From positions 1 to 64,000 of the forward strand of contig NZ_JAAHBQ010000006.1 of the NCBI RefSeq assembly GCF_020144665.1: a DNA stretch of 64,000 bases. Reading direction: 5' to 3'. A program made the translations under genes and the position numbers. Below are positions 9,269 to 24,737 of this stretch, one piece after another. The notes below the pieces were generated by a model. It saw nothing but the letters and a program-made list of their open reading frames with translations. It made no database searches and had not been told where the DNA came from. This DNA is from Oscillatoria salina IIICB1. Its GTDB lineage: Bacteria; Cyanobacteriota; Cyanobacteriia; Cyanobacteriales; SIO1D9. Position 1 is the stretch's first letter. Every line of letters begins with the position of its first letter.

Positions 9269-9426
9269 ATTGCTTTGTCTTTGAGATTCACTGCTCGTTT
9301 ACTGAGTATATATGCTCAAAAATATGTAGCGTTGATTAATCGTGCGCTCGAAAGAGATTTCTAGCAAGAGTATATCTTACTTAAGATTAATGCCATGTTT
9401 GGCGATCGCTATTTTCTCAATAATTG

Positions 9427-10855
<1,429 letters not shown>

Positions 10856-10866
10856 AGGCAATTGAG

Positions 10867-10952
10867 GATTGGGGATTACCAGTTATCAGTGGGTAGTTGG
10901 TAGTAGGTAGTTGGTGTTAATCTCCTCTTCCCCCAATTACCAATCCCCAATC
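10867..10952. repeat. Inverted G-rich repeats between convergent genes
   Basis: GATTGGGGATT (10867-10877) and its exact complement AATCCCCAATC (10942-10952) flank heptamer-like CAGTTAT and GTAGTTG units. The arrangement could fold as a long hairpin and end transcription from both ahcY and the convergent porin gene. The units belong to the same STRR families seen elsewhere in the window. Confidence 0.5.
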
Positions 10953-10959
10953 TTTAAAG

Positions 10960-12804
10960 TTAAAAGCTAAATTGGGCGCGAAGGTTGCCGACATAAATTG
11001 TCCCGTTATCGCCAAAGTTGTTAGGATTACCAATAATGTAGAAGGCGGGGACTAGGGCGAGATTATTGGTAACTGGGTAGAAGTAAGTTGCTTCCACCTC
11101 AAACTGAGTAGCACCATCACCACCACCAGAAATCAGAAACTTGCGTCCGTCAACGACATCGAAGGGAATGACAAACGAGAGAGTTCCTAACGCACCTTCC
11201 TTGACTAAATCGGGAAAAGCAAGCCCAAATTGAAATGATTGGGCATTAATTTCGCCGTCATCTCGTCCCGATGTGAGCGGAAAAATATTCGTACTACCGT
11301 AACTGTAGCGTCCAAAGATGCCGAAACGCCTAGTAAGGCGCCAGTCGAAGTTAAAAGCAAAAGTGTCGGCAGTTGCATCTCCAACCGGACCGCCAAAACT
11401 GTCGTCAGCAAAACCATAAATTGGTTCGGCGATCGCTCCTCCAATTAAACCGTTACTTGCTTCAATATTCGAGCGATTGTAGATAAACCGTAAAGTAGCA
11501 TTGTCACTCGGTTCGTAGTCTAATTGAACTGTAGTCGTATTCGTCCCGCCAAACAAACCTTGAGTTGGATCGCTAGCAGTGTTAAACGGAGGACTAGGCA
11601 AAAATTCGGTATTTTCACCTAAATAACCGACTCTTAGCGTCAAGTTATCAGTCACATTCCAAATCGCTACTGCACCTGCACCTCGGTCAATAGAATTCAA
11701 TTGAGTGCTACCACTGGAGTTGAAACTACTAGCACCAGTCAGAAAAAACGTAAAAGCATTATTATCAAAATAGCGATACCAGTTTACTCGCGCTCCAACT
11801 ACAAACCGTAAGCGATCGCCCACCGGAAAATCATAAAATATTTCTCGCAAAATTATATCATTATTTACGGCGGGAGCGCCTCTTTGGTCGGTAAAAGGAG
11901 TTCCAAAAGTATTAAAAAGTCCCGCCGAAACAAATTGATTTGCTGGAGAGTTACCATTCCCCGCAGCGAGTTGCACGACTAAATTATCTCTGCCGGAAAA
12001 AGAGGTATTCAAAGTTAAAAAGATGTAGTCGCTAAGAGTAATTTCTGGATCGTCGGTAATGACTCTTTCTACATTTTCTCCGGTAACATCCCGTTGGGCG
12101 ATAAACGCATTTAATCCTTCGGCACGGATATCGCCGTTAGCAAATGCCCCAGTTAAATTAAGAAATACTTGACCTCTCAATTTTGTCGTTGTGGAAAACT
12201 GATTTTCTTCCAGGAAAACAACCTGCGTTTCGAGATTATCTACTCTGGTTCCTAAAGTAGCTAATTCTGCTTCAAATTCTTGGGTTAACCTTCTCAAGAT
12301 TTCTAAGTCTTCGGTTGGGATACCGGGATTACCTTCATTGGTGACATTTTCTCTTAGCAATACCTCAATTTGATTCAGACAAGCATTCAAACCCGCCGCA
12401 AATTCATAGCGAGTTATTGCTCGATTTCCTCGATAAGTTCCATCAGGATAACCCACAAGACAAGCATACTCTTCAACTAAATTTTGTAGCGCTTGAAATG
12501 CCCAGTCAGTGGGTCGAACGTCTCGAAGTTGAATCACTGAAGGAACTTGCATCATTGTCTCATTAGCTAGATTTTCCTCGACAAGCTCGCTTGTGTCTAT
12601 TTCTGTAACTGAGAAATCTAAAGTAGGGTTTGAGTCGAAATTTTCCCAGTTTTCGCTGCTAATTAATTCTGTCTCCTCTTCCCTGGCTGTAACAGCTTGT
12701 AACTCTTCCAATGGTTGATTTTCCCTAGCTCTTCCGTGAAAGGGAAAAAGTAAAATAGCTACCAGAAATACTGGTACTGTTGCAAGTATATTTCTAGTCA
12801 TCAA
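10960..12804 (-). CDS. SLH-domain outer-membrane porin (OprB / iron-uptake-porin family)
   Basis: 614 residues. A signal peptide (about residues 1-27, ending FPFHGRA) is followed by an acidic spacer, then one SLH domain at about 93-150 (VRPTDWAFQALQNLVEEYAC, GYPDGTYRGNRAITRYEFAA) that binds periplasmic wall polymer. A short coiled coil follows (about 165-200, LEILRRLTQEFEAELATLGT). The remainder, about 210-614, is a beta-barrel ending in the C-terminal aromatic signature NLRAQFSF. These are the major cyanobacterial outer-membrane channels; the family is annotated as carbohydrate-selective (OprB) or iron-uptake porin, and the actual solute cannot be read from sequence. The neighbouring purine permease is divergent, so a role in purine entry is only a possibility. 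Confidence 0.9.
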   Translation of the reverse strand: MMTRNILATVPVFLVAILLFPFHGRARENQPLEELQAVTAREEETELISSENWENFDSNPTLDFSVTEIDTSELVEENLANETMMQVPSVIQLRDVRPTDWAFQALQNLVEEYACLVGYPDGTYRGNRAITRYEFAAGLNACLNQIEVLLRENVTNEGNPGIPTEDLEILRRLTQEFEAELATLGTRVDNLETQVVFLEENQFSTTTKLRGQVFLNLTGAFANGDIRAEGLNAFIAQRDVTGENVERVITDDPEITLSDYIFLTLNTSFSGRDNLVVQLAAGNGNSPANQFVSAGLFNTFGTPFTDQRGAPAVNNDIILREIFYDFPVGDRLRFVVGARVNWYRYFDNNAFTFFLTGASSFNSSGSTQLNSIDRGAGAVAIWNVTDNLTLRVGYLGENTEFLPSPPFNTASDPTQGLFGGTNTTTVQLDYEPSDNATLRFIYNRSNIEASNGLIGGAIAEPIYGFADDSFGGPVGDATADTFAFNFDWRLTRRFGIFGRYSYGSTNIFPLTSGRDDGEINAQSFQFGLAFPDLVKEGALGTLSFVIPFDVVDGRKFLISGGGDGATQFEVEATYFYPVTNNLALVPAFYIIGNPNNFGDNGTIYVGNLRAQFSF

Positions 12805-12900
12805 TCCTCACACCTTTGCTTGCTAGCTAACTAAAGCTGCTTGCTGCACGCCGAACATAGCGATCGCTCTTGAGAATAACTTTTCTGTATACTGTATTCT

Positions 12901-12942
12901 GTATTCATTAATACAAACTCAAATCAGAAGTAGAGATAAAAT
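12901..12942 (+). promoter_or_regulatory. NtcA-activated (class II) promoter of the purine gene set
   Basis: GTATTCATTAATAC (12901-12914) is an exact GTA-N8-TAC NtcA site. It is followed after exactly 22 bases by TAAAAT (12937-12942), a TAN3T -10 box. This is the canonical geometry of NtcA-dependent promoters, where the NtcA site replaces the -35 element. Transcription would start near 12949, giving a 5' leader of about 116 bases before the permease. The rest of the 260-base spacer from the porin start shows no gene. Confidence 0.75.
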
Positions 12943-13064
12943 CAGTTAATCCTGGTCAGATTTTGGATAATAATCCGATGTAAAAATGAAGTTAATCTGT
13001 CTAAATTAAAGTTTAAAATTCCTAGAAAAATAAGCCTTTAAATTAAAGCAAAGTAGAGCAGAAA

Positions 13065-14465
13065 ATGATCCAACAAAATCAAACAATAACTCAAGAAACA
13101 GAAACCTTAGAAACCGTCCAGACATCAACTATAAGATCGGATTTAATCTATGGTTTAGAAGCTCGTCCACCATTTGTAGAATCAGTATTTGTCGCTTTGC
13201 AGCACGTTTTTGCTTGTTTTGTCGGCATTATTACACCTGGTTTAATTATTTGTGGAGCTTTAGAAGTAGAGCCAACAGACACAACTTTTATCCTCAGTAT
13301 GTCTTTGTTTGTTTCGGGAATTGCTACTTTTATTCAAGCGAAGAGATTTGGACCAGTAGGTTCGGGATTGCTAAGCGTTCAAGGAACAAGTTTTGCTTTT
13401 TTAGGTCCAATTATTGCCGCCGGGTTAGCCGTAAAAGAAGCAGGAGGAAGCCCAACTGAAGCATTAAGTTTGATTTTCGGCTTATGTTTATTTGGTGCTT
13501 TCGTCGAAATTTTAATTAGCCGCTTTCTGCATTTAGCTAACAAAATTATTACACCGTTGGTAACAGGAGTTGTCGTAACTTTAATTGGTTTAACTTTAAT
13601 TAAAGTAGGAATTACTAGCATTGGTGGCGGTGTGGTTGCTCAAAGAAATGAAACTTTTGGGAGTCCGGTTTATTTAGGTATTGCGGCTTTAGTTTTGATT
13701 GTGATTGTAGCGCTTAATAGCTTGAATAATAACTATTTGCGAATGTCATCTGTGGTGATTGGTTTAGCAGTGGGATATTTGGTTTCAATTCCTCTAGGAT
13801 TGGTGAGTTTTAGTAATTTGAGTGGCTTACCCTTAATTACGATTCCGATACCATTTCGTTATGGTTTGGGGTTTGATTTTGGTGCTTTTATTCCCTTCGC
13901 TTTTTTATATATGATTACTGCGATTGAATCGATTGGCGATTTGACTGCAACTTCAGCTATTTCTGGCGAACCCATTGAAGGAGCAAAATATTTTCGGCGA
14001 CTAAAAGGAGGAGTTTTAGGTGATGGGATAAACTCGATTATCGCAGCTTGTTTTAATACCTTTCCGAATACTACTTTTAGTCAAAATAATGGAGTGATTC
14101 AACTAACAGGAGTTGGTAGTCGTTATGTGGGCTACTTTATTTCGGTAATTTTTGTAATTCTGGGCTTGTTTCCGATTGTTGCAGGTGTTTTTCAGGCGTT
14201 ACCTCAACCAGTGTTAGGTGGTGCAACATTAGTAATGTTTGCCACAGTTGCCGTTGCGGGAATTAAAATTATTTCCTGCGTTGACTTAAGCAAACGGAAT
14301 TCGATTATTTTGGCGATCGCGTTAGGATTAGGTTTGGGTGTCACGTTTGAACCAACAATTCTCGATAGTTTACCAAATCTAATCAAAAGTATCTTCTCCT
14401 CCGGAATTTCCACAGGAGGGCTGACAGCTTTAGTTTTAAACCTCATTTTGCCAGGGAAAGAGTAG
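13065..14465 (+). CDS. Purine permease, NCS2 (nucleobase:cation symporter 2) family, likely urate/xanthine
   Basis: 466 residues with about 12-14 hydrophobic segments. NCS2 landmarks are present: QHVFACFVGIITPGLI in helix 1, the substrate helix around GSGLLSVQGTSFAFLGPIIA, ESIGDLTATSAISGEP in helix 8 carrying the signature glutamate, and the helix 10 motif NTFPNTTFSQNNGVIQLTGV. The TFSQNNGVI form is typical of the urate/xanthine rather than the uracil branch. It should import purines with protons across the inner membrane. It is the first gene behind the NtcA-type promoter, 14 bases before hpxO, and corresponds in role to HpxP in the Klebsiella hpx cluster. Exact specificity (urate, xanthine, hypoxanthine) is not decided by sequence. 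Confidence 0.9.
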   Translation: MIQQNQTITQETETLETVQTSTIRSDLIYGLEARPPFVESVFVALQHVFACFVGIITPGLIICGALEVEPTDTTFILSMSLFVSGIATFIQAKRFGPVGSGLLSVQGTSFAFLGPIIAAGLAVKEAGGSPTEALSLIFGLCLFGAFVEILISRFLHLANKIITPLVTGVVVTLIGLTLIKVGITSIGGGVVAQRNETFGSPVYLGIAALVLIVIVALNSLNNNYLRMSSVVIGLAVGYLVSIPLGLVSFSNLSGLPLITIPIPFRYGLGFDFGAFIPFAFLYMITAIESIGDLTATSAISGEPIEGAKYFRRLKGGVLGDGINSIIAACFNTFPNTTFSQNNGVIQLTGVGSRYVGYFISVIFVILGLFPIVAGVFQALPQPVLGGATLVMFATVAVAGIKIISCVDLSKRNSIILAIALGLGLGVTFEPTILDSLPNLIKSIFSSGISTGGLTALVLNLILPGKE

Positions 14466-14479
14466 GGAGAATAATCATC

Positions 14480-15643
14480 ATGTACGGACTAAAAGCGATC
14501 GTTATTGGTGCCGGAATGGGCGGCTTGACCGCAGGTATTGCCCTGCGTCAAGCTGGATATCAGGTAGAAATCTATGAAAAAACGAGCAAACTACGTCCGG
14601 CAGGGGCTGGTATTTCTCTGTGGTCGAATGGCATTAAAATATTAAATAAACTCGGACTGGGAAAGGAAATTGCCGCAATTGGCGGACAAATGAATCGGAT
14701 GGAATATCGCAGCCATACCGACGAACTTCTCAATCACGTTGATTTAGCAGCCTTAGTCGCAAAAGTCGGTGAAAAACCTTATCCCGTAGCGCGTACTGAC
14801 TTACAACAAATGATGTTAACTGCATTTGGCGAGTCAGATGTGCGTCTGGGGATGCGCTGCGTTAGCGTTAAAGAAGACGAAGATAGTGCTACAGCTATTT
14901 TTGAAGATGGTAGTACCGCCACAGGAGATATCATTATCGGTGCAGATGGGATTCATTCGGTGGTGCGAAGTTATGTCACCGGGAAAGAAACTCAGCCTCG
15001 TTATGCAGGTTACGTGAATTGGAACGGTTTAGTCCCAGCTAGCCCAGATTTGGCAGATAATGATGTTTGGGTTATCTATGTTGGAGAAGGTAAACGTGCT
15101 TCAATGATGCCTGTGGGGGGAAACCGTTTTTACTTTTTCTTTGGTTGTCCGATGTCTGAAGGGACGAGTGTTGAGCCAGAAAATCGGCGGGCAGAATTAA
15201 AGGAAATCTTTGCAGGTTGGGCGCAACCCGTACAAAATTTAATTGAGAAACTCGATCCTTACCAACTTAATCGTTTAGAGATTTGTGACCTCGATCCGCT
15301 ACCGAATTTGGTTAAAGGTAGAATTGCTTTATTGGGAGATTCCGCTCATGCAACTACGCCAACTTTAGGACAAGGAGGCTGTCAAGCGATGGAAGATGCG
15401 GAAGTTTTGTCTCGCTTTTTGGTGACAACTAATCTGAGTGTGGCAGATGCTTTACTACGTTATCAAGGGGAACGCAAAGAACGAACTGCAAATTTGGTCT
15501 TGAAAGCACGCAAACGCACAGATACAATTTATGGCAAAAATGCTGAAATTACCCAGGAATGGTACGAACAACTGAAAGCAGAAGAAGAAAAAGACGTAAC
15601 CGACGCGATCGCCAAAATTATTTTGGGAGGTCCGTTACGCTAA
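14480..15643 (+). CDS. hpxO: FAD-dependent urate hydroxylase
   Basis: 387-residue flavoprotein monooxygenase (group A). It converts urate to 5-hydroxyisourate with NADH and O2, replacing uricase. Visible: the FAD dinucleotide-binding motif IVIGAGMGGLTAGIALRQAG at the N-terminus, RTDLQQMM and IIGADGIHSVVR (DG motif), and ALLGDSAHATTPTLGQGGCQ (GD motif). The stretch YAGYVNWNGLV...VGEGKRASMMPVGG...RFYFFF closely resembles Klebsiella HpxO, including the positions of the urate-contacting arginine (GEGKR) and tyrosine (RFYFFF). The C-terminal LKARKRTD...WYEQL...ILGGPL also matches that enzyme. The stop is directly followed by the uraH start. Confidence in HpxO over a generic monooxygenase is high because of the neighbours. 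Confidence 0.93.
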   Translation: MYGLKAIVIGAGMGGLTAGIALRQAGYQVEIYEKTSKLRPAGAGISLWSNGIKILNKLGLGKEIAAIGGQMNRMEYRSHTDELLNHVDLAALVAKVGEKPYPVARTDLQQMMLTAFGESDVRLGMRCVSVKEDEDSATAIFEDGSTATGDIIIGADGIHSVVRSYVTGKETQPRYAGYVNWNGLVPASPDLADNDVWVIYVGEGKRASMMPVGGNRFYFFFGCPMSEGTSVEPENRRAELKEIFAGWAQPVQNLIEKLDPYQLNRLEICDLDPLPNLVKGRIALLGDSAHATTPTLGQGGCQAMEDAEVLSRFLVTTNLSVADALLRYQGERKERTANLVLKARKRTDTIYGKNAEITQEWYEQLKAEEEKDVTDAIAKIILGGPLR

Positions 15644-16006
15644 ATGATAGGTAAGTTGACTACTCATGTTTTAGATACAGCCCACGGTTGTCCAGCCGCA
15701 GGAATCGAAATTGAACTCTGGGTTGTTGCGGCTGACTCACAAGAAAGAAATTTACTGAAAACGACCAAAACTAATTATGACGGACGCACTGATGTCCCTT
15801 TGTTAGCCGATGAGCAATTCAAGAAGGGCGTATACGAGTTAGTTTTTGCCGTGGGAGAGTATTTTGGTCAATTTGCGGAAACTGAGGCAGCGCTGCCCTT
15901 TTTAGACCGCGTTCCGATTCAATTTGGAATTGCCGATCCCACCGTTCACTATCACGTTCCCTTGTTGGTTTCACCTTGGTCTTACAGTACCTATCGAGGT
16001 AGCTAA
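15644..16006 (+). CDS. uraH: 5-hydroxyisourate hydrolase (transthyretin-like)
   Basis: 120 residues, full length. It hydrolyses 5-hydroxyisourate, the HpxO product, to OHCU. The family signatures are complete: [20 protein letters not shown] at the N-terminus (catalytic His), the mid-chain Asn-Tyr-Asp-Gly-Arg segment ([11 protein letters not shown]), and the C-terminal [19 protein letters not shown] with the diagnostic YRGS end. The ATG follows the hpxO TAA with no gap; GGGAGG inside the end of hpxO, about 10 bases upstream, serves as ribosome site. No signal peptide, so it is cytosolic like HpxO. It is equivalent to HpxT of Klebsiella. Confidence 0.96.
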
Positions 16007-16010
16007 TTAT

Positions 16011-16045
16011 CAGTAAACAGTAAACAGTTATCAGTTACCAGTTTA
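16011..16045. repeat. Short heptamer array (5 units)
   Basis: CAGTAAA, CAGTAAA, CAGTTAT, CAGTTAC, CAGTTTA in tandem, starting 5 bases after the uraH stop. Member of the CAGTNNN STRR family dispersed in this window. Confidence 0.85.
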
Positions 16046-16198
16046 CTAAGTACAAGACAAAATCCGTTCTTTTGCTGGAAATCTAAGAACAAAATGTCAA
16101 AAAATTGAAGCTATGGCATGAGTTGAAATAAAATAGACAAATTGAAGTTTTCGTAAAATAATCAAGTTAAACGGAAAACTCTAACAAATCTCTAAATA

Positions 16199-16352
16199 AT
16201 ATCAAATCCGTTTGATTAATCAGACAACGAGCAAGATGTTTAGGCATTCGCCTACGCTTCGCGAACGTACTACGAAGCAATTTTTACGCTCGGAGTGGGA
16301 GCGTCTCGCTCCCTAAACTAATAAACAATGGTCGATTATTCGGATTTGATAT
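16199..16352. mobile_element. MITE-like element with terminal inverted repeats
   Basis: ATATCAAATCCG at 16199-16210 is exactly complementary to CGGATTTGATAT at 16341-16352, and the similarity extends inward (ATTAATC on the left, GATTAT on the right). The 154-bp interior has no ORF but holds a hairpin (GGGAGCG TCT CGCTCCC) and a GCATTCGCCTACGCTTCGCG stretch typical of small dispersed cyanobacterial repeats. I could not identify a target-site duplication. It lies in the 385-base gap (16007-16391) that splits the purine gene set, between uraH and the DUF1993 gene. Confidence 0.6.
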
Positions 16353-16391
16353 AACTTTCACTAGAGAAGTTAACTCTTAAGGAAAGATCGA

Positions 16392-16904
16392 ATGTCAAGG
16401 CAAAAGATAGATTCAATTCAAACCTTATTCCAAAGCCGCTTAGAAACTCTTGAGCATCTTTTCAAGACAGGACAGACTTATTTCTCTGATGATGAATCTT
16501 TGCTGCAAAAGCGTATTGCACCTGATATGTTTCCCTTTGGTACTCAGATTGCTTTCACCTGCAATCAACCATACAACTTTTCTCTGTGGTGCGAGGGAAA
16601 ACCTTTGCATAACCTAAACCCAGAAGTTGTCTCTCTCGCGCAGGGATACGAACACATAGCAAACACAAAAAAGCTTCTTTCAAACATTAAAGTTGAAGAT
16701 GAAAAGCTAACTGAGGAAATCCGTCTTGAATTGGGAGAGGGACTTTATATGGAGTTGACGGGTAGCGTCTATGTCAACGAATTTTTAATTCCCAACTTCT
16801 ACTTTCATCTTATCACTGCTTACGATATTCTGCGTATGGCTGGTGTACCAATTGGCAAAAAAGATTATATGATACACTTGATGCCTTTAGTCAGAAAAAA
16901 ATGA
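16392..16904 (+). CDS. DUF1993 family protein
   Basis: 170 residues. The motif set is that of DUF1993, a probable DinB-like four-helix fold: KRIAPDMFPFGTQIAFTCNQ near residue 55, a polar middle, and the C-terminal signature IPNFYFHLITAYDILRMAGV followed by IGKKDYM. No biochemical function is established for the family to my knowledge. It sits inside the purine-catabolism set, on the same strand, between uraH and the Rieske oxygenase, separated from each by a repeat-bearing spacer. The start ATG follows AGGAAAG with close spacing. A link to purine use is only suggested by position. Confidence 0.8.
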   Translation: MSRQKIDSIQTLFQSRLETLEHLFKTGQTYFSDDESLLQKRIAPDMFPFGTQIAFTCNQPYNFSLWCEGKPLHNLNPEVVSLAQGYEHIANTKKLLSNIKVEDEKLTEEIRLELGEGLYMELTGSVYVNEFLIPNFYFHLITAYDILRMAGVPIGKKDYMIHLMPLVRKK

Positions 16905-17069
16905 AGATATATTTTTAATTAATTCACAGTAGTTGTTGAGTTCTTTTCGAGCAAACTCCTTCTTCATCATCCTTTGAAAGTTTCGAGACTAAGTACATAA
17001 CAAAAGTTGAAAAATCCAGTTTATTCTCCTAACCCCCAATTCCTAATCACCAATCCCTAATCACCAATT

Positions 17070-18089
17070 ATGTTAGTTACAAAACAACCTCTTTTCCGTA
17101 AATTCTGGTATCCAGTTATTCCTCTAAGTGAATTATCCGAACAACCGCAAGCTTTTGAGTTGTTAGGTGAACCTTTGGTACTTTGGTTAGATAGAGAAGG
17201 TAAACCTGCGGCTGTACGCGATCGCTGCTGTCATCGTAGTGCAAAACTTTCTTTAGGGAAAGTTGTTGAGGGTAATATTTGTTGTCCTTATCACGGTTGG
17301 ACATTCAATTCGTCAGGAATTTGCGTTTGCGTTCCTCAAAACAAGCATAATTCAATTTCTCCTAGTTATAAAGTCCCAGCTTATCGTTGTGTCGAAAAAT
17401 ATGGCTATGTTTGGGTATGTTTAGACGAACCATTGATAAATATTCCTGACATTCCTGAAGCTGAAGATTCTGAATATCGCTTAATTCCTGAATTTTACGA
17501 ACGCTGGAATTGTGCGGGTTTGCGAGTGATGGAAAATGAATTAGATATGGCTCATCCTACATTTGTTCATACTACAACTTTTGGTAGTGAAGAGCATCCG
17601 ATTCCCGATGTTATGGAGTTCCAAGAAACCGAATGGGAATTATATTATCATAGCGTTCTCGGTGTCGAAAATCCTCAACAACAACAGCAAAACTTAAACC
17701 TTGAAGAAACGAAAACACTGCGTACTATTGACGGAACTTGGTTTGTGCCGTTTACTGTTAAACTACGCATAGCTTACCCAAATGGTAAAGTACATATCAT
17801 CGTTAATACGATGACACCGATTAATGATTCGGCTTCGCAAATGGTACAATTTTGCTTGCGTAATGATACAGAAGCTGAAGTAAAAAGTAGTGAAGTTATT
17901 GCTTTCGATCGCGCGGTGACTTTGGAGGATAAGCGTATTTTAGAATCAACTGATTATGATGTACCCCTCGATGTTAGTCAAGAACAACACATGATTACTG
18001 ATAAACCAGGAATTATTATCCGACGGAAAATAGCAGCGCTTTTGAAAAAATATGGTGAGGTTGAACAAACTAGAATAAGATTTTTATGA
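17070..18089 (+). CDS. Rieske non-heme iron oxygenase, candidate HpxD-like purine oxygenase
   Basis: 339 residues. An N-terminal Rieske domain (about 7-110) has the 2Fe-2S ligands C-x-H in DRCCHRSAKLS and C-x2-H in CCPYHGW. The catalytic domain carries the mononuclear iron motif NELDMAHPTFVH (Asp, His-x4-His). It resembles ring-hydroxylating oxygenase alpha subunits of the short PaO/VanA type. Its last four bases overlap the start of uraD (ATGA), so the two are co-translated. In Klebsiella the Rieske enzyme HpxD, with reductase HpxE, is implicated in hypoxanthine oxidation within a comparable cluster; that function is my best inference here. No reductase gene is present, so electrons would come from a general ferredoxin or an enzyme encoded elsewhere. 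A role on another purine intermediate cannot be excluded. Confidence 0.85.
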   Translation: MLVTKQPLFRKFWYPVIPLSELSEQPQAFELLGEPLVLWLDREGKPAAVRDRCCHRSAKLSLGKVVEGNICCPYHGWTFNSSGICVCVPQNKHNSISPSYKVPAYRCVEKYGYVWVCLDEPLINIPDIPEAEDSEYRLIPEFYERWNCAGLRVMENELDMAHPTFVHTTTFGSEEHPIPDVMEFQETEWELYYHSVLGVENPQQQQQNLNLEETKTLRTIDGTWFVPFTVKLRIAYPNGKVHIIVNTMTPINDSASQMVQFCLRNDTEAEVKSSEVIAFDRAVTLEDKRILESTDYDVPLDVSQEQHMITDKPGIIIRRKIAALLKKYGEVEQTRIRFL

Positions 18090-18589
18090 GTAAATATTCT
18101 TTGACTGAACTTAATCAAATGAATCGAGAAGAATTTGTGGATGCGTTGGGTGAAGTATTTGAAGATACTCCCGCGATCGCGCAGAAAGTTTGGGAGCAAA
18201 AACCGTTTACCGATCTTAGCCAATTGCATCAAAAAATGGTAAACATAGTTGAAAATTTTAGCCCAGATCGACAGCTAAAATTAATTCGAGCGCATCCGGA
18301 TCTTGGTAGTAAAGCTAAAATGGCTCCTGCTTCGGTAAATGAGCAAGCTGGAGTCGGTTTAGATCGATTGGATTTGGCTGAATACGATCGCTTTCAGTTA
18401 CTCAATCAAGCTTATAAAAATAAGTTTGGTTTTCCTTTTATTCTTGCGGTAAAAGATCGCGACAAGGATAGTATTCTAGAAGAGTTCGAGCGTCGTTTAG
18501 GAAACAGTTTATTAGCCGAAAAACAGCAAGCACTAAAGGAAATATTTACGATCGCTTGGTTTCGCTTGAAAGCAATGATTAGAGAATAA
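18086..18589 (+). CDS. uraD: OHCU decarboxylase
   Basis: 167 residues, full length. It decarboxylates 2-oxo-4-hydroxy-4-carboxy-5-ureidoimidazoline to S-allantoin, the step after UraH. Family marks: LNQMNREEFVDALGEVFEDT at the N-terminus, the active-site histidine in LIRAHPDLGSKA, a central segment around LDLAEYDRFQLLNQAYKNKF, and GFPFILAVK near the C-terminal third (transition-state contact). The start overlaps the Rieske oxygenase stop by 4 bases, indicating translational coupling. It is equivalent to HpxQ of Klebsiella. Allantoin-degrading genes are not in this window. Confidence 0.96.
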   Translation: MSKYSLTELNQMNREEFVDALGEVFEDTPAIAQKVWEQKPFTDLSQLHQKMVNIVENFSPDRQLKLIRAHPDLGSKAKMAPASVNEQAGVGLDRLDLAEYDRFQLLNQAYKNKFGFPFILAVKDRDKDSILEEFERRLGNSLLAEKQQALKEIFTIAWFRLKAMIRE

Positions 18590-18677
18590 AATATTATTGG
18601 AATACTTTGTTTATGAAAAAGCGTTTTAATTTTGGGGAATTAGTGCAAGCTTGCTCTGGTAGCTCCCTATGCTTCTA

Positions 18678-18733
18678 AATTAGGGTTATTATTCTGAATT
18701 AGGGTTGACAAAGGTAATTTAATCTAATATAAA
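18678..18733 (+). promoter_or_regulatory. Sigma70 promoter with upstream direct repeat before the deaminase gene
   Basis: TTGACA (18705-18710), 17 bases, TATAAA (18728-18733) form a consensus-grade promoter; a start near 18740 leaves a leader of about 220 bases. AATTAGGGTT occurs twice (18678-18687 and 18697-18706), 19 bp apart, the second copy running into the -35 box, as expected for a regulator site. A weak GTA-N8-TAA match lies inside the spacer. Confidence 0.65.
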
Positions 18734-18739
18734 ATAAAA

Positions 18740-18960
18740 AATGCTACAGATATTTTCTAGAAACGTTGCAGACAACGTCTTTACAAATTGAGGAAAACAC
18801 CAGCAAGTGCACGAATAAATAAGGGAGGATGATTAGCGAGACGCTCGCACTACCAAGGTAAGCTAACTATCTTTGAAAGTAAATAAACAAACGAAAAAAA
18901 CAAGAAATATAAATCAAGAAAGCTAATTCGACAAATAATAACTGGTAACTGATAACTAAG
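18740..18960 (+). other. Long untranslated leader of the deaminase gene
   Basis: No ORF of note. Two short hairpins are visible: ACGTTG CAGA CAACGT (around 18762-18778) and GCGAG ACG CTCGC (around 18837-18849), followed by heptamer-like ACTGGTAACTGATAACT just before the start codon. I could not match it to a known riboswitch class. Confidence 0.35.
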
Positions 18961-20328
18961 ATGACAACTCTGCTAGTAAAAAACATTCACACTTTAGTAA
19001 CAATGGATGCAGCGCGACGAGAAATTCGTGACGGTGCTTTATTCATTCGCGATAATGTAATCGAACAAGTGGGAACAACTTCGGAACTTCCTCAAACAGC
19101 CGAGGAAATGTTAGACTTGGAAGGAAAATATGTCGTACTTCCCGGATTTGTTAATACTCATCATCACTTCTTTCAAACATTAACACGGACAGTTCCGGCT
19201 GCACAAAATTGCGATTTGTTTCACTGGCTAAAAAATTTATATCCAATTTGGGCAAATCTTACTCCTGAAGGAGTGTATATTAGCACGAAAATGGCAGTGG
19301 CAGAGTTAATTCTTTCTGGCTGTACAACTGCTAGCGATCATCTCTACCTTTACCCGAATAATTGTACCCTGGATGATGAAATTCGTGCCGCTCAAGAAAT
19401 AGGAATTAGGTTTCATGCTAGTCGAGGAAGCATGAGTGTGGGTGAAAGTTTAGGTGGGCTACCTCCTGATTCTATAGTAGAAAAAGAAACGGCAATTTTG
19501 CAAGATTCGCAGCGAATTATCGAGCAATATCACGATAATTCTCGTCATTCAATGTTACGCATTACTTTAGCTCCTTGCTCCCCATTTTCGGTTTCCCAAG
19601 ATTTGATGCGAGAATCAGCAGCAATGGCTCGTAATTATCCGGGAGTGAGGTTACATACTCATTTAGCAGAAAATGAGACAGATGTCAAGTATAGTTTAGA
19701 AAAATTTGGTTTAATTCCCGGCGATTATGCGGAATCTGTAGGTTGGTTGGGAGAGGATGTTTGGCACGCTCATTGTGTAAAATTGAGCGATCGCGCGATC
19801 GCCAAATTTGGCAAAACTGGTACAGGAGTTGCTCATTGTCCCTGTAGCAATATGCGTCTAGCTAGCGGGATCGCCCCGATTCGCAAAATGCTCGATCGTA
19901 ATGTACCAGTGGGTTTAGGAGTCGATGGTGCTGCTTCTAACGATGGCACAAATTTGCTTTATGAAGCCAAAATGGCAATGCTTTTAGCTCGTGTCGGTAG
20001 CTGCGAAGCTAGTGCGATGACAGCCCGCGACGTTTTAGAATTGGCAACCCTAGGGGGTGCAAAAGTTCTCGGAAGAGACGATATTGGCTATCTCGCACCG
20101 GGAATGTCAGCAGATTTTATAGCAATTAATAGCGATCGCCCCCAATTTGCCGGAGCTCAAGATCGGATCGCAGCTTTAGTCTTTTGTCAAGCCGAGCGAG
20201 TCGATTATAGCTTTATTAATGGTAAAAAAGTAGTCGATCGCGGTCAATTAACTACAGTTGACTTAGGTCAATTGGTGGAGAAAACTAACCAAATGTCTCA
20301 GAAAATGAGGAGTGGATCTCGTATGTGA
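18961..20328 (+). CDS. 8-oxoguanine / guanine deaminase (amidohydrolase superfamily)
   Basis: 455 residues. Metal-dependent TIM-barrel amidohydrolase: the HxH motif in GFVNTHHHFFQTLTRTVP, metal histidine in LHTHLAEN, HAHCVKLS, and the metal aspartate in LGVDGAASNDGTN. The segment NTHHHFFQTLTR...DLFHWLKNLYPIWANLTPEG is characteristic of the 8-oxoguanine deaminase group, which turns 8-oxoguanine into urate; guanine to xanthine is the related alternative. Both products feed HpxO directly or after oxidation. It is the last gene of the purine set but has its own strong promoter and a long leader. Cytosolic; no signal peptide. The ATG at 18961 is the only reasonable start. Confidence 0.85.
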   Translation: MTTLLVKNIHTLVTMDAARREIRDGALFIRDNVIEQVGTTSELPQTAEEMLDLEGKYVVLPGFVNTHHHFFQTLTRTVPAAQNCDLFHWLKNLYPIWANLTPEGVYISTKMAVAELILSGCTTASDHLYLYPNNCTLDDEIRAAQEIGIRFHASRGSMSVGESLGGLPPDSIVEKETAILQDSQRIIEQYHDNSRHSMLRITLAPCSPFSVSQDLMRESAAMARNYPGVRLHTHLAENETDVKYSLEKFGLIPGDYAESVGWLGEDVWHAHCVKLSDRAIAKFGKTGTGVAHCPCSNMRLASGIAPIRKMLDRNVPVGLGVDGAASNDGTNLLYEAKMAMLLARVGSCEASAMTARDVLELATLGGAKVLGRDDIGYLAPGMSADFIAINSDRPQFAGAQDRIAALVFCQAERVDYSFINGKKVVDRGQLTTVDLGQLVEKTNQMSQKMRSGSRM

Positions 20329-20403
20329 CTCGATTTCCGGTGATTTACACTCGAATTAGTAAAAAAGAGTATAATTGAATACAGACACAAGTTTAATCGT
20401 TCA

Positions 20404-20431
20404 TCTCTTTTTCGACCCCTAGAAAAAGAGA
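20404..20431. other. 10-bp inverted repeat
   Basis: TCTCTTTTTC (20404-20413) and GAAAAAGAGA (20422-20431) with the 8-base loop GACCCCTA. It lies between the deaminase stop and the gene at 20498. It may be a terminator-like hairpin or an operator of the small downstream gene; no U-run follows. Confidence 0.45.
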
Positions 20432-20497
20432 CGGAAGTAGGAAAATAGTCCCAAGGAACGCACCTCAAACCACTACACAAATAGAGGTAAGTCACCC

Positions 20498-20782
20498 ATG
20501 AAGAAATCGTTAATTCACAACGTCGCCAACCAATTGCAATGGCAAACTTATCAGCAATTAGAATTACTTCCTAATTCAGTGGAGAATCCTCAAGCCAAAA
20601 CAGCCAAATTTGCCTTGGGACTAGATTTAGTCTGGCGGCTGTTAATCATCGCCTTAACTAAAGAACTGATTTACCAAGACCAACAAGTAGAATATTTAGA
20701 GCGGTGTTGGGCGTTTGATTTCGAGGAAAATAACTCAACTAATTCTCAGACACTGCAAAAACTGTGGACGCTGATCAAGTAA
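20498..20782 (+). CDS. Small hypothetical protein, 94 residues
   Basis: I do not recognise a family. The sequence is helical and amphipathic, with a moderately hydrophobic centre (GLDLVWRLLIIALTKELIYQ) too charged at its end to be a clear membrane helix, and an acidic C-terminal third. A possible ribosome site AGAGG lies about 8 bases upstream of the ATG. It lies downstream of the purine set on the same strand but beyond a hairpin and 170 bases, so it is probably a separate unit. Function unknown. Confidence 0.6.
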   Translation: MKKSLIHNVANQLQWQTYQQLELLPNSVENPQAKTAKFALGLDLVWRLLIIALTKELIYQDQQVEYLERCWAFDFEENNSTNSQTLQKLWTLIK

Positions 20783-21062
20783 CTTACTCAAACAGCTTAA
20801 AAGAGATTCGCTATGCTTGTTATGGCAGAAATTGAGGAAAAATATCCTCGTAGTTTCTCATCAGGCGACGATGCTCCTTATTTGATGCAATTTGTTAGAA
20901 ATTGGCTTAGGGCGCGATCGCCTTACCGCTTTGGTTGCTTCACCTGAGTATTGTCAAGTTTGACGTTCGCAGTTCTTTCCTAGAAGTGTTAGGCGATCGC
21001 TATCATTTACCGAAACACTTGCGTAACTTACCGGGTACATTAGTTGTCAACAGGAGATCGCA
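20783..21062 (+). other. Spacer with fragmentary reading frames
   Basis: A 44-codon ORF (20813-20947, starting MLVMAEIEEKYP) and, in another frame, an open stretch across about 20912-21062 (with FDVRSSFLEVLGDRYHLPKH) overlap around 20912-20947. Both have protein-like composition. They may be pieces of one decayed gene joined by a frameshift, but I recognise no family. Confidence 0.3.
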
Positions 21063-21305
21063 GTGAAAATTGAAAGATTTAATCAAAAAGATCTTTCACC
21101 AGAAGAAAAAGTACAACTTGAAAAGCTCAAAATTTTAATGAAAAATGCTACTGCTAATGGCAAAATTTCTAAAGATGAGTTGGAATATATTCGCATTGCT
21201 ATGTGGGCTCATAAAAATATTTCTCTTGCCGAACTGAAATTATACAGAAAGTTAATCTTAGATAAAATTGATTCTGGTGAGTTAGAAATGGATTATTGGG
21301 CTTAA
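21063..21305 (+). CDS. Small hypothetical protein, 80 residues
   Basis: GTG start at 21063 with AGGAG at 21051-21055, seven bases upstream, so the start is well supported. The protein is strongly charged and helical (DLSPEEKVQLEKLKILMKNA, then NGKISKDELEYIRIAMWAH), rich in Lys and Glu, without membrane segments. I do not recognise a family; the GKISKDELEYI phrase is only loosely like an EF-hand and lacks its spacing. It stands alone between short spacers and is followed by heptamer repeats. Confidence 0.65.
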   Translation: MKIERFNQKDLSPEEKVQLEKLKILMKNATANGKISKDELEYIRIAMWAHKNISLAELKLYRKLILDKIDSGELEMDYWA

Positions 21306-21307
21306 GA

Positions 21308-21335
21308 CAGTTAGCAGTAAACAGTTAGCAGTTTA
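21308..21335. repeat. Short heptamer array (4 units)
   Basis: CAGTTAG, CAGTAAA, CAGTTAG, CAGTTTA in tandem directly after the stop of the 80-residue gene. The rest of the spacer to pstB continues with degenerate units (CACTGTTCACTGATAACT, CCCAGTCCCG). Confidence 0.8.
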
Positions 21336-21448
21336 CCCAATAATCCTCAGTTATTCTAATTCTACCTTTTTGAATCTCTCCCATTAACTACTCACTGTTC
21401 ACTGATAACTCAAAAACCCAATCCCAAATCCCCAGTCCCGATAACTAT

Positions 21449-22447
21449 TTATCCAAAACGACCGCTAACGTATTCTTGTGTCGCTTTTTCTTGGGGATTT
21501 TGAAAGACTTTCTCCGTGCGATCGTATTCAACTAAGTAACCGAAACGGTTGCCACTTTCGGCTTCTTCAGCGTTGAAAAAAGCAGTCAAATCAGCTACTC
21601 GTTGTGCTTGTTGCATATTGTGAGTAACAATGACAATTGTATAATTTTGCTTGAGTTCGTGAATTAAATCTTCTACTTTGTTCGTAGAAACCGGATCGAG
21701 AGAAGAACAAGGTTCATCCATTAAAACAACATCTGGTTTAAGTGCAACTGCACGTGCAATACACAAACGTTGTTGTTGTCCGCCAGAGAGAGATAAACCA
21801 TTTTCTTTTAGTTTATCTTTAACTTCATTCCACAATGCTGCTTGTTTGAGCGAGGTTTCAACTAACTCGTCCATATCGCCTTTGTAGCCATTAATTCTCG
21901 CTCCGTAGGCGATATTTTCATAAATAGATTTAGGAAAAGGATTGGGTTTTTGAAAGACCATTCCAATGCGTCGGCGCACTTCAACCGGGTCAATTTTTTT
22001 CGAGTAAAGGTCTTTATCATCGTAGATTACTTTTCCTTCAACTCGACAACTATCGATCAAATCGTTGAGACGATTAAAACAGCGTAATAAGGTACTTTTC
22101 CCGCAACCAGAAGGACCGACAAAAGCGGTAACTTGATGTTGGGGAATATCCATATAAACATCTCGCAGCGCCATAAAATCGCCGTAGTAGACTTTTAATT
22201 TTTCGGTGTGCAAAATGGTTTCGGTGTTCTTCTGTTGGTTAGTGGGTTGGCGATTTTTAGGTTGATGATTCTCATTTCGATCTCGCTGGGAACTTAGTGA
22301 ATTGTGAGATCGAGTTTCCTCATTCTCGTCAGACATCATTTTTCGCGATCGCTCTTGTCTCAAATTTGTGTCAGAATTATTGGGGAGCTTTTCGCGATCG
22401 ATTTCTTGGGGAAGATTGTAATTTAAATTTTTATCTCTAGCTGACAT
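21449..22447 (-). CDS. pstB: Phosphate ABC transporter ATP-binding protein with N-terminal extension
   Basis: 332 residues; PstB is normally about 260. Residues about 80-332 are the ATPase: Walker [11 protein letters not shown]-loop [20 protein letters not shown], signature LSGGQQQR, Walker [15 protein letters not shown], switch His in [11 protein letters not shown], and the PstB end QEYVSGRFG. The first 75 residues are polar (Asn, Arg, Glu, Gln), probably disordered. The long form is supported by AAGGAG six bases before the ATG at 22447; internal Met codons at 22339/22336 could give a shorter protein. It hydrolyses ATP to drive phosphate import through PstCA and follows pstA by 59 bases. Confidence 0.95.
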
Positions 22448-22506
22448 AATTACTCCTTGATTAATTAACAGTAAATTGACTATTTTTTTTGCTTGATTCC
22501 GTCAAA

Positions 22507-23391
22507 TTAATAAATACTCTTCCGGGTTGCCCAACGAGAAATGATGCTAGTAAGTAGAATTAGTAACACCAAAATCAAAGAAGCTGCCCAAGCAAGTTCA
22601 TTTTGAGCTTGATAAGGAACAGTGGCATAGCGATAAATTAAAACCGATAAAGATGGATAAGGTCCAATTAAATCTTGGGGCCAAAACTGCGTAAATAATA
22701 CTGTAAAAAGTAAAGGTGCAGTCTCTCCAGCAGCGCGGGCAACTGCTAAAGTTGTTCCAGTGAGAATTGCTGGTAAAGCAGCAGGTAAAACAATTTTCAA
22801 AACAGTATGAAAGTTAGAAGCACCTACTCCTGCTGATGCCCAACGTACTTCTTGCGGTACAATTTGTAACGCTTCGTAAGTAGTTCTTACCACAATTGGT
22901 AACATCAAAATTGCTAAGGCAAAACCCCCTGCATAAGCTGAATAAGTATTAGTTGTTAAGACAATTACCCCATAAGCAAATACGCCCATAATAATTGAGG
23001 GAACGCCGCTTAAAACATTGTTCATAAAGCTAATAAAGCCATAGACTTTGCGCGAGCTAAATTCAGACAAATAAATGCCTGCGAGAACGCCAATAGGAAT
23101 CGCAATTAAAGCAGCAATTCCGACTAAAACTAGCGTCCCGACGATCGCATTAGCAATCCCTCCTCCTTCTTGTAAAGCTGCTGGTGGTAATTCAGTAAAT
23201 AAGGCGAGATTAAAGCGACTAGCTCCTTTATAAATTACGTAGGTAATGACTAATCCTAGGGGCAGTAAGGCAATACCTAAAAGGGTAAAAGCGATGGCGG
23301 TAAGTAACTTTCCTATCCACGTTCGGGGACGTGAATTATTATACTCCATGCTATGATTTTTGAAGTTATGTTCTTGATTTCGATCGGTCAT
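22507..23391 (-). CDS. pstA: Phosphate ABC transporter permease PstA
   Basis: 294 residues with six membrane helices starting at about residue 28. The BPD_transp_1 domain spans about 75-290, with the coupling loop EALQIVPQEVRWASAGVGAS that contacts PstB. It forms the inner-membrane channel with PstC. No clear ribosome site precedes the ATG at 23391; a second Met at residue 15 (23349) is an alternative start. It lies 27 bases after pstC and 59 before pstB, one operon. No phoU or pstS gene accompanies the set here. Confidence 0.95.
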   Translation of the reverse strand: MTDRNQEHNFKNHSMEYNNSRPRTWIGKLLTAIAFTLLGIALLPLGLVITYVIYKGASRFNLALFTELPPAALQEGGGIANAIVGTLVLVGIAALIAIPIGVLAGIYLSEFSSRKVYGFISFMNNVLSGVPSIIMGVFAYGVIVLTTNTYSAYAGGFALAILMLPIVVRTTYEALQIVPQEVRWASAGVGASNFHTVLKIVLPAALPAILTGTTLAVARAAGETAPLLFTVLFTQFWPQDLIGPYPSLSVLIYRYATVPYQAQNELAWAASLILVLLILLTSIISRWATRKSIY

Positions 23392-23418
23392 AATTTCGGC
23401 TAAAATGACAATAATTAA

Positions 23419-24369
23419 TTAGTATTTTTTGACTTTACGAATTATCGATTCAGCAAGAATGTTGACTAGCAAAGTGATGGCAAATAAAATCAGTCCGGCA
23501 TACATTAAAGCGTCTTTTTGTAAACCGCTTGATTCGGGAAATTGATTTGCCATTAGGGAAGCAATGGTGTTGGCTGGTGCAAGTAGGGAAAAGTCTAAAT
23601 CGTTGCTATTCCCAATTACTAGAGTGACGGCCATTGTTTCTCCTAAAGCGCGACCTAGTGCTAACATTAAACCGCCGATAATTCCTGAAAAAGCGGCGGG
23701 AATTAGGACGCTAAAAATTGTTTGCCAACGACTCGAACCAACTGCATAAGAACCCGAACGCAAGTCTCCTGGTAAGGAAGCTAAAGAGTCGCGAGAAATA
23801 GTAGTAAAAATTGGCAAAATCATAATTGACAAAATCACTCCGGCGGGTAGCATTCCCGGACCTCTGTAGGGTGTAGAAAATAAAGGTATCCAAGCGAAAT
23901 TATTATGAAGAAATGAGCCAATTGGTTTGAGAAAGGGAATTAAAACGTAAATGCCCCATAAACCGTAAACAACACTAGGAATTGCGGCTAATAATTCGAC
24001 CATAAAGACAAATACGGTACGAATCGATTTAGGTAAAAAATTCTCGCTGAGGACGATCGCGATCGCTAAACCAATCGGAAAGGCGATTAAAAGTGCAATT
24101 AACGAACTGACAATGGTTCCGTAGATCGTCGGTAGCACTCCGTAGTTGTCTTCTACGGGATTCCAAGCGCTGGTAGACAAAAATGACCAACCAAACTCGC
24201 GGATGGCGGGAAATGCCTGAATTCCTACTTCTACAGCGATCCAAAGTAAAATAGCGGCGATCGCAAAGGCAAAAATGAGTGTTAGCCAAAAAAAGCCTTT
24301 GTCAATGGATTTTTCCGATCCCGAACGATGTTTGTTTTCGGTTTGGGTGTTATTGGTTGCTGTCGTCAT
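23419..24369 (-). CDS. pstC: Phosphate ABC transporter permease PstC
   Basis: 316 residues, six membrane helices, with a polar N-terminal tail of about 25 residues. The PstC pattern is visible: FLSTSAWNPVEDNYGVLPTI in the first outer loop, FPIGLAIAIVLSE, ELLAAIPSVVYGLWGIY and the cytoplasmic coupling loop SLPGDLRSGSYAVGSSRWQT. It partners with PstA in the phosphate channel. It is the first gene of pstCAB; the periplasmic binding protein gene pstS, normally upstream, is absent, where glgP begins divergently after 368 bases. PstS must be encoded elsewhere. Confidence 0.95.
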   Translation of the reverse strand: MTTATNNTQTENKHRSGSEKSIDKGFFWLTLIFAFAIAAILLWIAVEVGIQAFPAIREFGWSFLSTSAWNPVEDNYGVLPTIYGTIVSSLIALLIAFPIGLAIAIVLSENFLPKSIRTVFVFMVELLAAIPSVVYGLWGIYVLIPFLKPIGSFLHNNFAWIPLFSTPYRGPGMLPAGVILSIMILPIFTTISRDSLASLPGDLRSGSYAVGSSRWQTIFSVLIPAAFSGIIGGLMLALGRALGETMAVTLVIGNSNDLDFSLLAPANTIASLMANQFPESSGLQKDALMYAGLILFAITLLVNILAESIIRKVKKY

Positions 24370-24627
24370 GGTAGTTTAATTATTTAATTGTTTCCGATTC
24401 GCAATTATCATAAAATTAGATAGATTTCCGGATATGTTAGCAATCAACTGGTAACAATAGCTATTTTCAACTTCTTAACTAACATCTAGCTTTTTGTTAA
24501 TTTTGGTCGTTGCCACAAGCTCTCTCCAAAAATTTAAATCTGTTTGCCAACTACTGTTTATCTCTTAAGAAGTATTTCTGCGAATTTTTTTGATTTTTTT
24601 CTCTTACTTAAGAACGATATTTATTTA

Positions 24628-24668
24628 CTTAAACTAAACTTAATTTTTTGTTTAATTTTAATTAACCT
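24628..24668 (+). promoter_or_regulatory. Pho-box-like array in the pstC-glgP spacer
   Basis: Four TTAA-centred octamers follow at 10-12 bp steps: CTTAAACT (24628), CTTAATTT (24639), TTTAATTT (24651), ATTAACCT (24661). Cyanobacterial PhoB/SphR boxes are tandem PyTTAAPyPyT octamers about 11 bp apart. Two units fit that pattern fully. Their orientation points to glgP, 70 bases downstream. The region is very A/T-rich, so chance is a real alternative. The rest of this 368-base spacer shows nothing else. Confidence 0.35.
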
Positions 24669-24737
24669 AAAATCGTAAAAACTTGAATTGGAAAGTAGAA
24701 AAAATATTAAATATTCTTGACAATTGAGAACAAGACA

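Follow-up and report, generated by a model that had tools for sequence, protein, structure and literature searches.

Putative purine scavenging under NtcA in Oscillatoria salina, with a Rieske oxygenase as probable substitute for xanthine dehydrogenase

Background

Xanthine dehydrogenase (XDH), which requires the molybdenum cofactor, is the textbook entry to purine catabolism. In the cyanobacterium Oscillatoria salina IIICB1, a stretch of 64,000 nucleotides (contig NZ_JAAHBQ010000006.1, positions 1 to 64,000; hereafter the window) carries a cluster of predicted genes for purine import and urate degradation, among them hpxO, encoding a flavin-dependent urate hydroxylase, and a gene for a Rieske non-haem iron oxygenase. 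The locus raises the question of how urate would be formed from other purines in a genome where we found no molybdenum domain of XDH. We address it by comparison with other genomes and loci (designated here by G and L numbers, respectively). The best overall explanation, which we consider probable on the grounds of sequence comparison, is a purine-scavenging operon for nitrogen starvation in which the Rieske oxygenase would replace XDH. Among the titles and abstract openings of the open papers that our searches listed, a coverage that leaves out most subscription journals, there is no report of HpxO-based purine catabolism or of a Rieske xanthine hydroxylase in cyanobacteria.

Results and discussion

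Distribution of the Rieske gene and of xanthine dehydrogenase

A search for PF02738, the molybdenum domain of XDH, gave zero matches in the O. salina genome (5.96 Mb, listed as 99.99% complete); the same search was positive in five of 14 control genomes. With this domain missing from the genome, the Rieske gene becomes the key step of the putative pathway. The distribution of both enzymes was compared in two samples. The first, an even sample of the phylum, comprised 386 genomes, 24 of which contain HpxO. Some relative of the window Rieske protein (E 1e-30 or better) occurs in 37 of these genomes and a member of its close clade (at least 66%) in ten, nine of them with HpxO. Proteins with PF02738 are present in 60 genomes and are of several kinds. 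Counting each of them as XDH was rejected, as NCBIfam matches (for 10 proteins) and a tree of 23 separated XdhB from a fused XdhA-like group and from a PaoC-like aldehyde oxidoreductase group, the latter also falling under the PaoC cut-off. In this sample, XdhB was identified with TIGR02965 for the two proteins scored against that model (G008 and G060), both of which passed, and by clade for the other nine. For the second sample, another 50 HpxO genomes were taken from the same order (54 were new, and the least complete four, G534, G598, G555 and G497, were omitted); here, proteins were put into the fused or PaoC-like class on frame length and score alone.

The Rieske gene and XdhB exclude each other in both samples. 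Nine of the 24 HpxO genomes in the first sample have the close Rieske gene and 11 have XdhB; the corresponding numbers for the 50 genomes of the second are 18 (at least 64%) and 14 (XdhB over the cut-off), and no genome in either sample has both. The hypergeometric chance of zero overlap is about 5e-4 in each sample, values that overstate independence because the genomes are related. At least four of the 50 (G557, G548, G561, G539) are named loci that had already been checked rather than new ones, and without these four the second value is 0.002. Counted by route, the 74 HpxO genomes comprise 27 with the close Rieske gene, 25 with XdhB, 13 with the fused XdhA-like enzyme and neither of the former, four with an HpxD-like Rieske protein and neither of the former (G183, G288 and G601, plus G547, which was classed by a weaker criterion, being 32% to the window Rieske protein and adjoining a presumed guanine deaminase), and five with none of these. 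Three of the counted close Rieske rows (G116, G437, G452) were flagged with one stop, with open frames of 338–381 amino acids. Left out of the close count in the second sample were the proteins of G436 and G470 (51–57%), weaker matches in G601, G547 and G564, and a remnant in G491. The Rieske proteins at 53–61% in G005, G008, G011, G060, G175, G191 and G330 were rejected as the same gene, none being near hpxO, uraH or uraD. Tandem pairs of related Rieske genes (L091, L092, L093; 53–56% to the window protein) lie outside purine clusters in G005, G011 and G191, which carry XdhB or the fused enzyme.

The exclusion was also examined on a quick HpxO tree of the 74 genomes, in which 23 of 71 inner branches were starred. 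In independent pairs differing in the Rieske gene, XdhB differed the opposite way in 3.9 and the same way in 0, with no difference in 4.1 (median p 0.125). When any alternative route was considered, the numbers were 5.9, 0.1 and 2.1, respectively (median p 0.031), the grouping of other routes (fused XdhA-like, HpxD-like, XdhB below the cut-off) having been chosen after seeing the data. An XdhB over the cut-off or in the core of the XdhB clade is absent from all 17 named genomes that carry the Rieske gene; five of the 17 have PF02738 proteins, namely G388, G400 and three genomes with PaoC-like proteins. Finally, one genome retains what appears to be a trace of replacement. G121 has the gene order Rieske, permease, HpxO, a 314-amino-acid frame, UraH, UraD and porin. 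Its congener G491 has the same order with the Rieske protein reduced to residues 1–41 and about 224–330, a deletion that removes the Rieske cluster along with part of the iron site. G491 has xdhABC instead (XdhB 1248 bits); the contig that bears it is similar in G+C, and we take the neighbouring genes from their sequences to be ordinary cyanobacterial ones.

The Rieske gene lies within 10 kb of hpxO, uraH or uraD in 17 of its 27 genomes. As judged from these comparisons, the cyanobacterial Rieske lineage seems to behave genetically as a molybdenum-free substitute for XDH that would form urate from hypoxanthine or xanthine. The fused XdhA-like molybdenum hydroxylase (about 910 amino acids, in G005, G070 and G423 among others; for example L144 2712–5429 and L254 9910–12645) is the only XDH-like enzyme seen in the 13 HpxO genomes that lack both XdhB and the close Rieske gene; the three that were scanned fell under the NCBIfam cut-offs. 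It is a possible third route to urate.

Besides the relatedness of the genomes, several observations weigh against such a substitution. The pairs test restricted to XdhB is not significant at 0.05, and in five of the 74 HpxO genomes none of the routes sought was seen. A close Rieske gene is present in G091, which has no HpxO, and in ten of the 27 Rieske genomes the gene was not seen near hpx genes (in G039 it stands at a contig end). Some genomes combine routes: G388 (the same genome as G548) has the Rieske gene together with an XdhB-like protein of 750 bits, under the cut-off of 849.5, and a PaoC-like protein; G423 has the Rieske gene and the fused enzyme; and G400, perhaps a counterexample, has the fused enzyme and a Rieske frame split in two. 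PaoC-like proteins occur in several Rieske genomes (e.g. G306, G393), and the XdhB genomes G170, G191 and G294 also have an HpxD-like protein. Lastly, no HpxE-type reductase was recognised at 9000–26000 of the window, where ten proteins were scanned with hidden Markov models; a genome-wide search was not made.

Identity of the Rieske protein

No NCBIfam model scored above its cut-off with the Rieske protein, and no HpxD model was among its NCBIfam matches. Residues C53, H55, C72, H75, D159, H162, H167 and D287, which we take to be the Rieske CxH/CxxH and the 2-His-1-carboxylate ligands, are invariant in 10 and in 18 sequences. The closest solved structures by sequence are NdmA (E 3e-36), SxtDIOX, SxtT and NdmB. 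A structure predicted from 18 sequences (mean predicted local distance difference test score, pLDDT, 83; predicted template modelling score, pTM, 0.85) matched NdmA with caffeine best (Z 32.4, 2.5 Å, 313 residues), and SxtT, GxtA and dicamba monooxygenase are within about one Z unit of NdmA and thus tied with it. The nearest structures (NdmA, NdmB, SxtT, GxtA) have about 23–30% identity to the window protein, and we saw no methylxanthine pathway here. That methylxanthine demethylases are among the best solved matches would fit a different role, in which the Rieske protein is an NdmA-like demethylase or hydroxylase of methylated or modified purines and the operon lives only on imported urate or 8-oxoguanine, a diet that requires no xanthine oxidation. 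However, a peripheral Rieske step would hardly explain the exclusion of XdhB, nor the combination of an HpxD-like Rieske gene with guanine deaminase in three genomes (see below), and we consider this role unlikely.

The original prediction had equated the Rieske protein with HpxD, an assignment that we abandon. HpxD, annotated by PGAP as 'molybdenum cofactor-independent xanthine hydroxylase subunit HpxD', has in common with the window protein the metal ligands, the frequent linkage to hpxO and, as proposed here, the reaction and the role in place of XDH, but the two are not orthologous by tree. Identity to the annotated HpxD of Klebsiella and Erwinia is 28–31%. A tree of 55 proteins, with an open backbone and some long branches, places HpxD beside Acinetobacter proteins and the cyanobacterial L020 and L021 (93/82), and the window protein in a separate clade of 25 (88/96). 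With 10 long rows omitted, the 25 form one clade (97), and a joint clade with HpxD is rejected (p-AU, from the approximately unbiased test, 4e-43 on a quick tree). HpxD-like proteins in other cyanobacteria are 47–51% to Klebsiella HpxD. A Rieske relative from Variovorax (46%) has no match to other window proteins within 9 kb.

The prediction had further likened the cluster to the hpx system of Klebsiella (hpxDE, hpxR, hpxO, hpxPQT; L187). This likeness holds for the joint presence of permease, HpxO, UraH, UraD and a Rieske oxygenase, and breaks down at the clade to which the oxygenase belongs. One report states that K. pneumoniae HpxDE take part in the oxidation of hypoxanthine to xanthine and of xanthine to uric acid (PMC7373994), and another describes activation of the Klebsiella genes via the general nitrogen system, NtrC (PMC9240774). 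In contrast to Klebsiella, the window has no HpxE or HpxR recognised next to the Rieske gene, an 8-oxoguanine deaminase in the cluster, an NtcA box in place of NtrC, and a divergent porin.

Organization of the cluster

The six genes named in the original prediction are all present on the forward strand at 13065–20328, with coordinates and family matches bearing out each of them (Table 1). A DUF1993 gene, the divergent porin and the lack of an XDH molybdenum domain in the genome had been overlooked. A gap of 14 bp separates the permease gene from that of HpxO, the UraH gene follows directly on the latter, and the Rieske and UraD genes share 4 nucleotides. With the remaining gaps in the set (385, 165 and 371 bp), several transcripts are possible. 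The order HpxO, UraH, Rieske, UraD, for which a search had been suggested, is repeated in Tychonema, Microcoleus, Kamptonema (with the deaminase in between) and others, which shows that the gene set is no chance grouping. For the DUF1993 gene, blastp at 1e-8 gave no homologue in any of the other hpx loci fetched; it probably does not belong to the pathway.

Table 1. Features of the purine cluster and its surroundings in the window
Feature	Position	Strand	Evidence or remark
OprB/por_somb-type porin	10960-12804	-	Domain/family match; shares the NtcA box with the permease operon
ATACAGAATA element	12895-12904	-	Overlaps the NtcA box by 4 nucleotides
NtcA box GTA-N8-TAC, GTATTCATTAATAC, palindromic	12901-12914	both (permease operon +, porin -)	Exact motif match
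-10-like element TAAAAT	12937-12942	+	22 nucleotides past the NtcA box
NCS2 xanthine/urate permease, PbuX type	13065-14465	+	TIGR03173, 436 bits (cut-off 414)
HpxO, FAD-dependent urate hydroxylase	14480-15643	+	NF033623, 612 bits (cut-off 500)
UraH, 5-hydroxyisourate hydrolase	15644-16006	+	TIGR02962, 129 bits (cut-off 87)
DUF1993 gene	16392-16904	+	Domain match
Rieske non-haem iron oxygenase	17070-18089	+	Pfam Rieske and VanA_C; proposed molybdenum-free xanthine/hypoxanthine hydroxylase
UraD, OHCU decarboxylase	18086-18589	+	TIGR03164, 190 bits (cut-off 96)
8-oxoguanine deaminase (amidohydrolase)	18961-20328	+	NF006055, 689 bits (cut-off 532)
Further GTA-N8-TAC	20369		Motif match
Glutamine riboswitch RF01739	20396-20464		55.7 bits (cut-off 35); directly behind the deaminase, before the 94-amino-acid gene
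94-amino-acid gene	20498-20782		No Pfam or NCBIfam match

Purine catabolism to allantoin via a flavin urate hydroxylase, as had been predicted, agrees with the match of HpxO to its equivalog model and with its alignment to PDB 3rp6 over residues 4–386 of 387. In this alignment, counted by eye, the active-site residues R204 and Y216 of the K. pneumoniae enzyme stand opposite an R and a Y. The assignment of HpxO as the enzyme converting urate to 5-hydroxyisourate is thus supported at the level of predicted function. This urate-to-allantoin part is ordinary hpx biochemistry; the new element is the cyanobacterial Rieske lineage.

Guanine feed-in and downstream genes

The window deaminase scores 689 bits with the 8-oxoguanine deaminase model and 160 bits with the guanine deaminase model, and it aligns with PDB 3hpa and 7ww2, structures of 8-oxoguanine deaminase, over nearly full length. 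It differs from those proteins by its place in a urate operon, and would be expected to convert 8-oxoguanine to urate or guanine to xanthine. Close relatives number 12 in the 386 genomes, all of them in HpxO genomes. Seven of these have XdhB, four have the Rieske gene and G070 has the fused enzyme, a distribution that ties the deaminase to the breakdown of urate rather than to the Rieske gene itself; a close relative is missing from 12 of the 24 first-sample HpxO genomes. A guanine deaminase (TIGR02967 over the cut-off) is encoded near the Rieske gene in G437, G284, G487 and L074 and beside the HpxD-like gene in G183, G288 and G601, and blastp found proteins of the guanine deaminase kind (27–30% to the window deaminase) after uraD in XdhB genomes of one genus. 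The recurrence of guanine deaminases in Rieske, HpxD-like and XdhB settings suggests xanthine as the substrate of the hydroxylase, whichever one a genome has. In the window, the 8-oxoguanine deaminase occupies the place of the guanine deaminase. The genome has four PF01979 proteins, this deaminase and three others that we take from their sequences to be UreC and two dihydroorotases; on this reading no second guanine deaminase of the amidohydrolase type is seen.

These observations bear on a different reaction for the Rieske protein, C8 hydroxylation of guanine. The 8-oxoguanine formed would be converted to urate by the deaminase encoded nearby, and a compound best known as a DNA lesion would then be a normal intermediate. 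The preference of the deaminase for the 8-oxoguanine model and the apparent want of another guanine deaminase in the genome would suit this reaction, as would the placing of both genes, which are adjacent in Kamptonema and G129 and in one cluster here. The seven XdhB genomes among the 12 with a close deaminase, as against four with the Rieske gene, and the guanine deaminases near the Rieske gene in other cyanobacteria, pointing to xanthine, make it improbable. We are equally doubtful of its evolutionary form, in which the cyanobacterial Rieske protein was recruited separately from proteobacterial HpxD for purine C8 hydroxylation, and guanine is deliberately converted through 8-oxoguanine to urate with no molybdenum enzyme.

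If hypoxanthine and xanthine are hydroxylated instead, candidate genes for the later steps of the pathway lie outside the cluster. Contig C79 encodes a PuuE allantoinase over the cut-off, with a GntR/FCD regulator, a protein similar to the C-terminal domain of allophanate hydrolase and an M20 amidohydrolase as neighbours; the last is over the cut-off of NF006771 (allantoate amidohydrolase subfamily) and under that of the AllC model. PuuE over the cut-off is present in each of the 24 first-sample HpxO genomes, O. salina included, and in none of three genomes with a Rieske relative and no HpxO.

Putative NtcA regulation

The consensus of NtcA-activated promoters, upstream of the first gene, is GTA-N8-TAC, about 22 nucleotides and TAN3T. 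The original prediction placed an exact promoter of this kind before the permease, and box, spacing and TAAAAT element are all in place. On the reverse strand, TATTCT follows the same box after 22 nucleotides, upstream of the divergent porin. By itself the match proves little: the 64 kb contain 11 core motifs, where 60 simulated sequences led us to expect 9.2, and three full promoter patterns on both strands, against an expectation of 2.0. We therefore rejected the match in the window alone as proof of control. The box nevertheless exceeds chance in that it is sited before the first gene and recurs before hpx operons elsewhere. A core box is found upstream of 34 of 72 hpxO operons and 60 of 424 control operons (p 1.8e-9), and the full promoter upstream of 16 and 22, respectively (p 1.4e-5); the count took one hpx operon per genome and control operons from the same loci, and did not correct for relatedness of promoters. 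An earlier count with looser operon borders and some genomes entered twice, likewise uncorrected, gave a weaker enrichment (core 16 of 64 versus 46 of 354, p 0.014; full p 0.017), which tells against the strength of this evidence. The boxes occur alike in the Rieske, XdhB and fused-enzyme classes. Thus NtcA control, also part of the original prediction, is well supported by the comparison across genomes as a predicted mode of regulation.

The 10-mer ATACAGAATA, which overlaps the box, has 22 occurrences in the 2.6 Mb of DNA fetched; by our count, 18 of these, including that in the window, precede purine genes. The combination of the 10-mer with a relaxed NtcA half site, GT-N8-ATACAGAATA, is present at 10 sites, all before purine genes and one in this window; several of the 10 are in the same or sister genomes, and the pattern was found after the fact. 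The element may belong to an extended NtcA site or represent a second operator. The palindrome TGTATACA, considered as a GntR operator, showed mild enrichment only (22 of 146 versus 30 of 760), and a scan with promoter and terminator consensus patterns gave matches at or below chance level.

The regulatory setting also bears on the purpose of the cluster. It might chiefly clear oxidised guanine (8-oxoguanine), a by-product of photosynthesis, rather than scavenge nitrogen, and the deaminase, above its cut-off and with all 12 of its close relatives among 386 genomes in HpxO genomes, would agree with that. Yet the import permease, the porin, the NtcA box and the downstream ureide genes fit nutrition better, and half of the first-sample HpxO genomes do without a close deaminase; clearance as the chief purpose is thus very unlikely.

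Porins, glutamine riboswitches and related gene sets

Of 73 hpx loci, 18 have a related porin no more than 8 kb from hpxO. Among 68 loci without hpxO, two have one at any position (L177, L245), both times beside purine genes; a first control count of 0 of 37 had omitted two porin-bearing loci. The porin is a possible outer-membrane entry for purines.

Behind the deaminase, a glutamine riboswitch precedes the 94-amino-acid gene, homologues of which (43–57%) are near hpxO in Kamptonema, G129, G523, G494, G504, G532, G452 and G517. RF01739 matches occur in seven of 74 hpx loci and none of 67 others, five of the seven being the model's own sequences or from the same genome. Other such riboswitches beside hpx genes are at L197 2669–2760 (before a different small gene), L198 2175–2266, L081 12068–12156 and L194 8855–8943. 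Known targets of type 1 glutamine riboswitches include gifB and DUF4278 genes, according to PMC6316151.

Related sets were also seen on plasmids. That of Pseudanabaena sp. ABRG5-3 (L190) carries an hpxO-uraD-puuE-uraH set together with a porin of the iron-uptake type and a ring-opening amidohydrolase. On Acinetobacter plasmids (L188, L189), HpxO is accompanied by LysR regulators and either one Rieske gene or two, and also by genes for urease or allantoicase.

Proposed pathway and its significance

In the pathway that we propose, purines would enter through the porin and the NCS2 permease, whose specificities are predicted. The 8-oxoguanine deaminase would feed in guanine as xanthine, or 8-oxoguanine as urate. 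The Rieske oxygenase, with electrons presumably from ferredoxin or an unlinked reductase, would hydroxylate hypoxanthine and xanthine to urate in place of the molybdenum enzyme XDH. HpxO, UraH and UraD would convert urate to allantoin, from which PuuE, allantoate amidohydrolase and urease, encoded elsewhere in the genome, would release ammonia. NtcA would turn on the operon and the divergent porin under nitrogen shortage.

A second Rieske lineage thus appears to have displaced XDH, with several switches of route within one phylum, and the comparison supplies matched relatives for biochemistry. It further connects the scavenging of purines with NtcA and, for a few genomes, with glutamine riboswitches. 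If the proposal is true, the use of purine nitrogen in these cyanobacteria would be independent of molybdenum.

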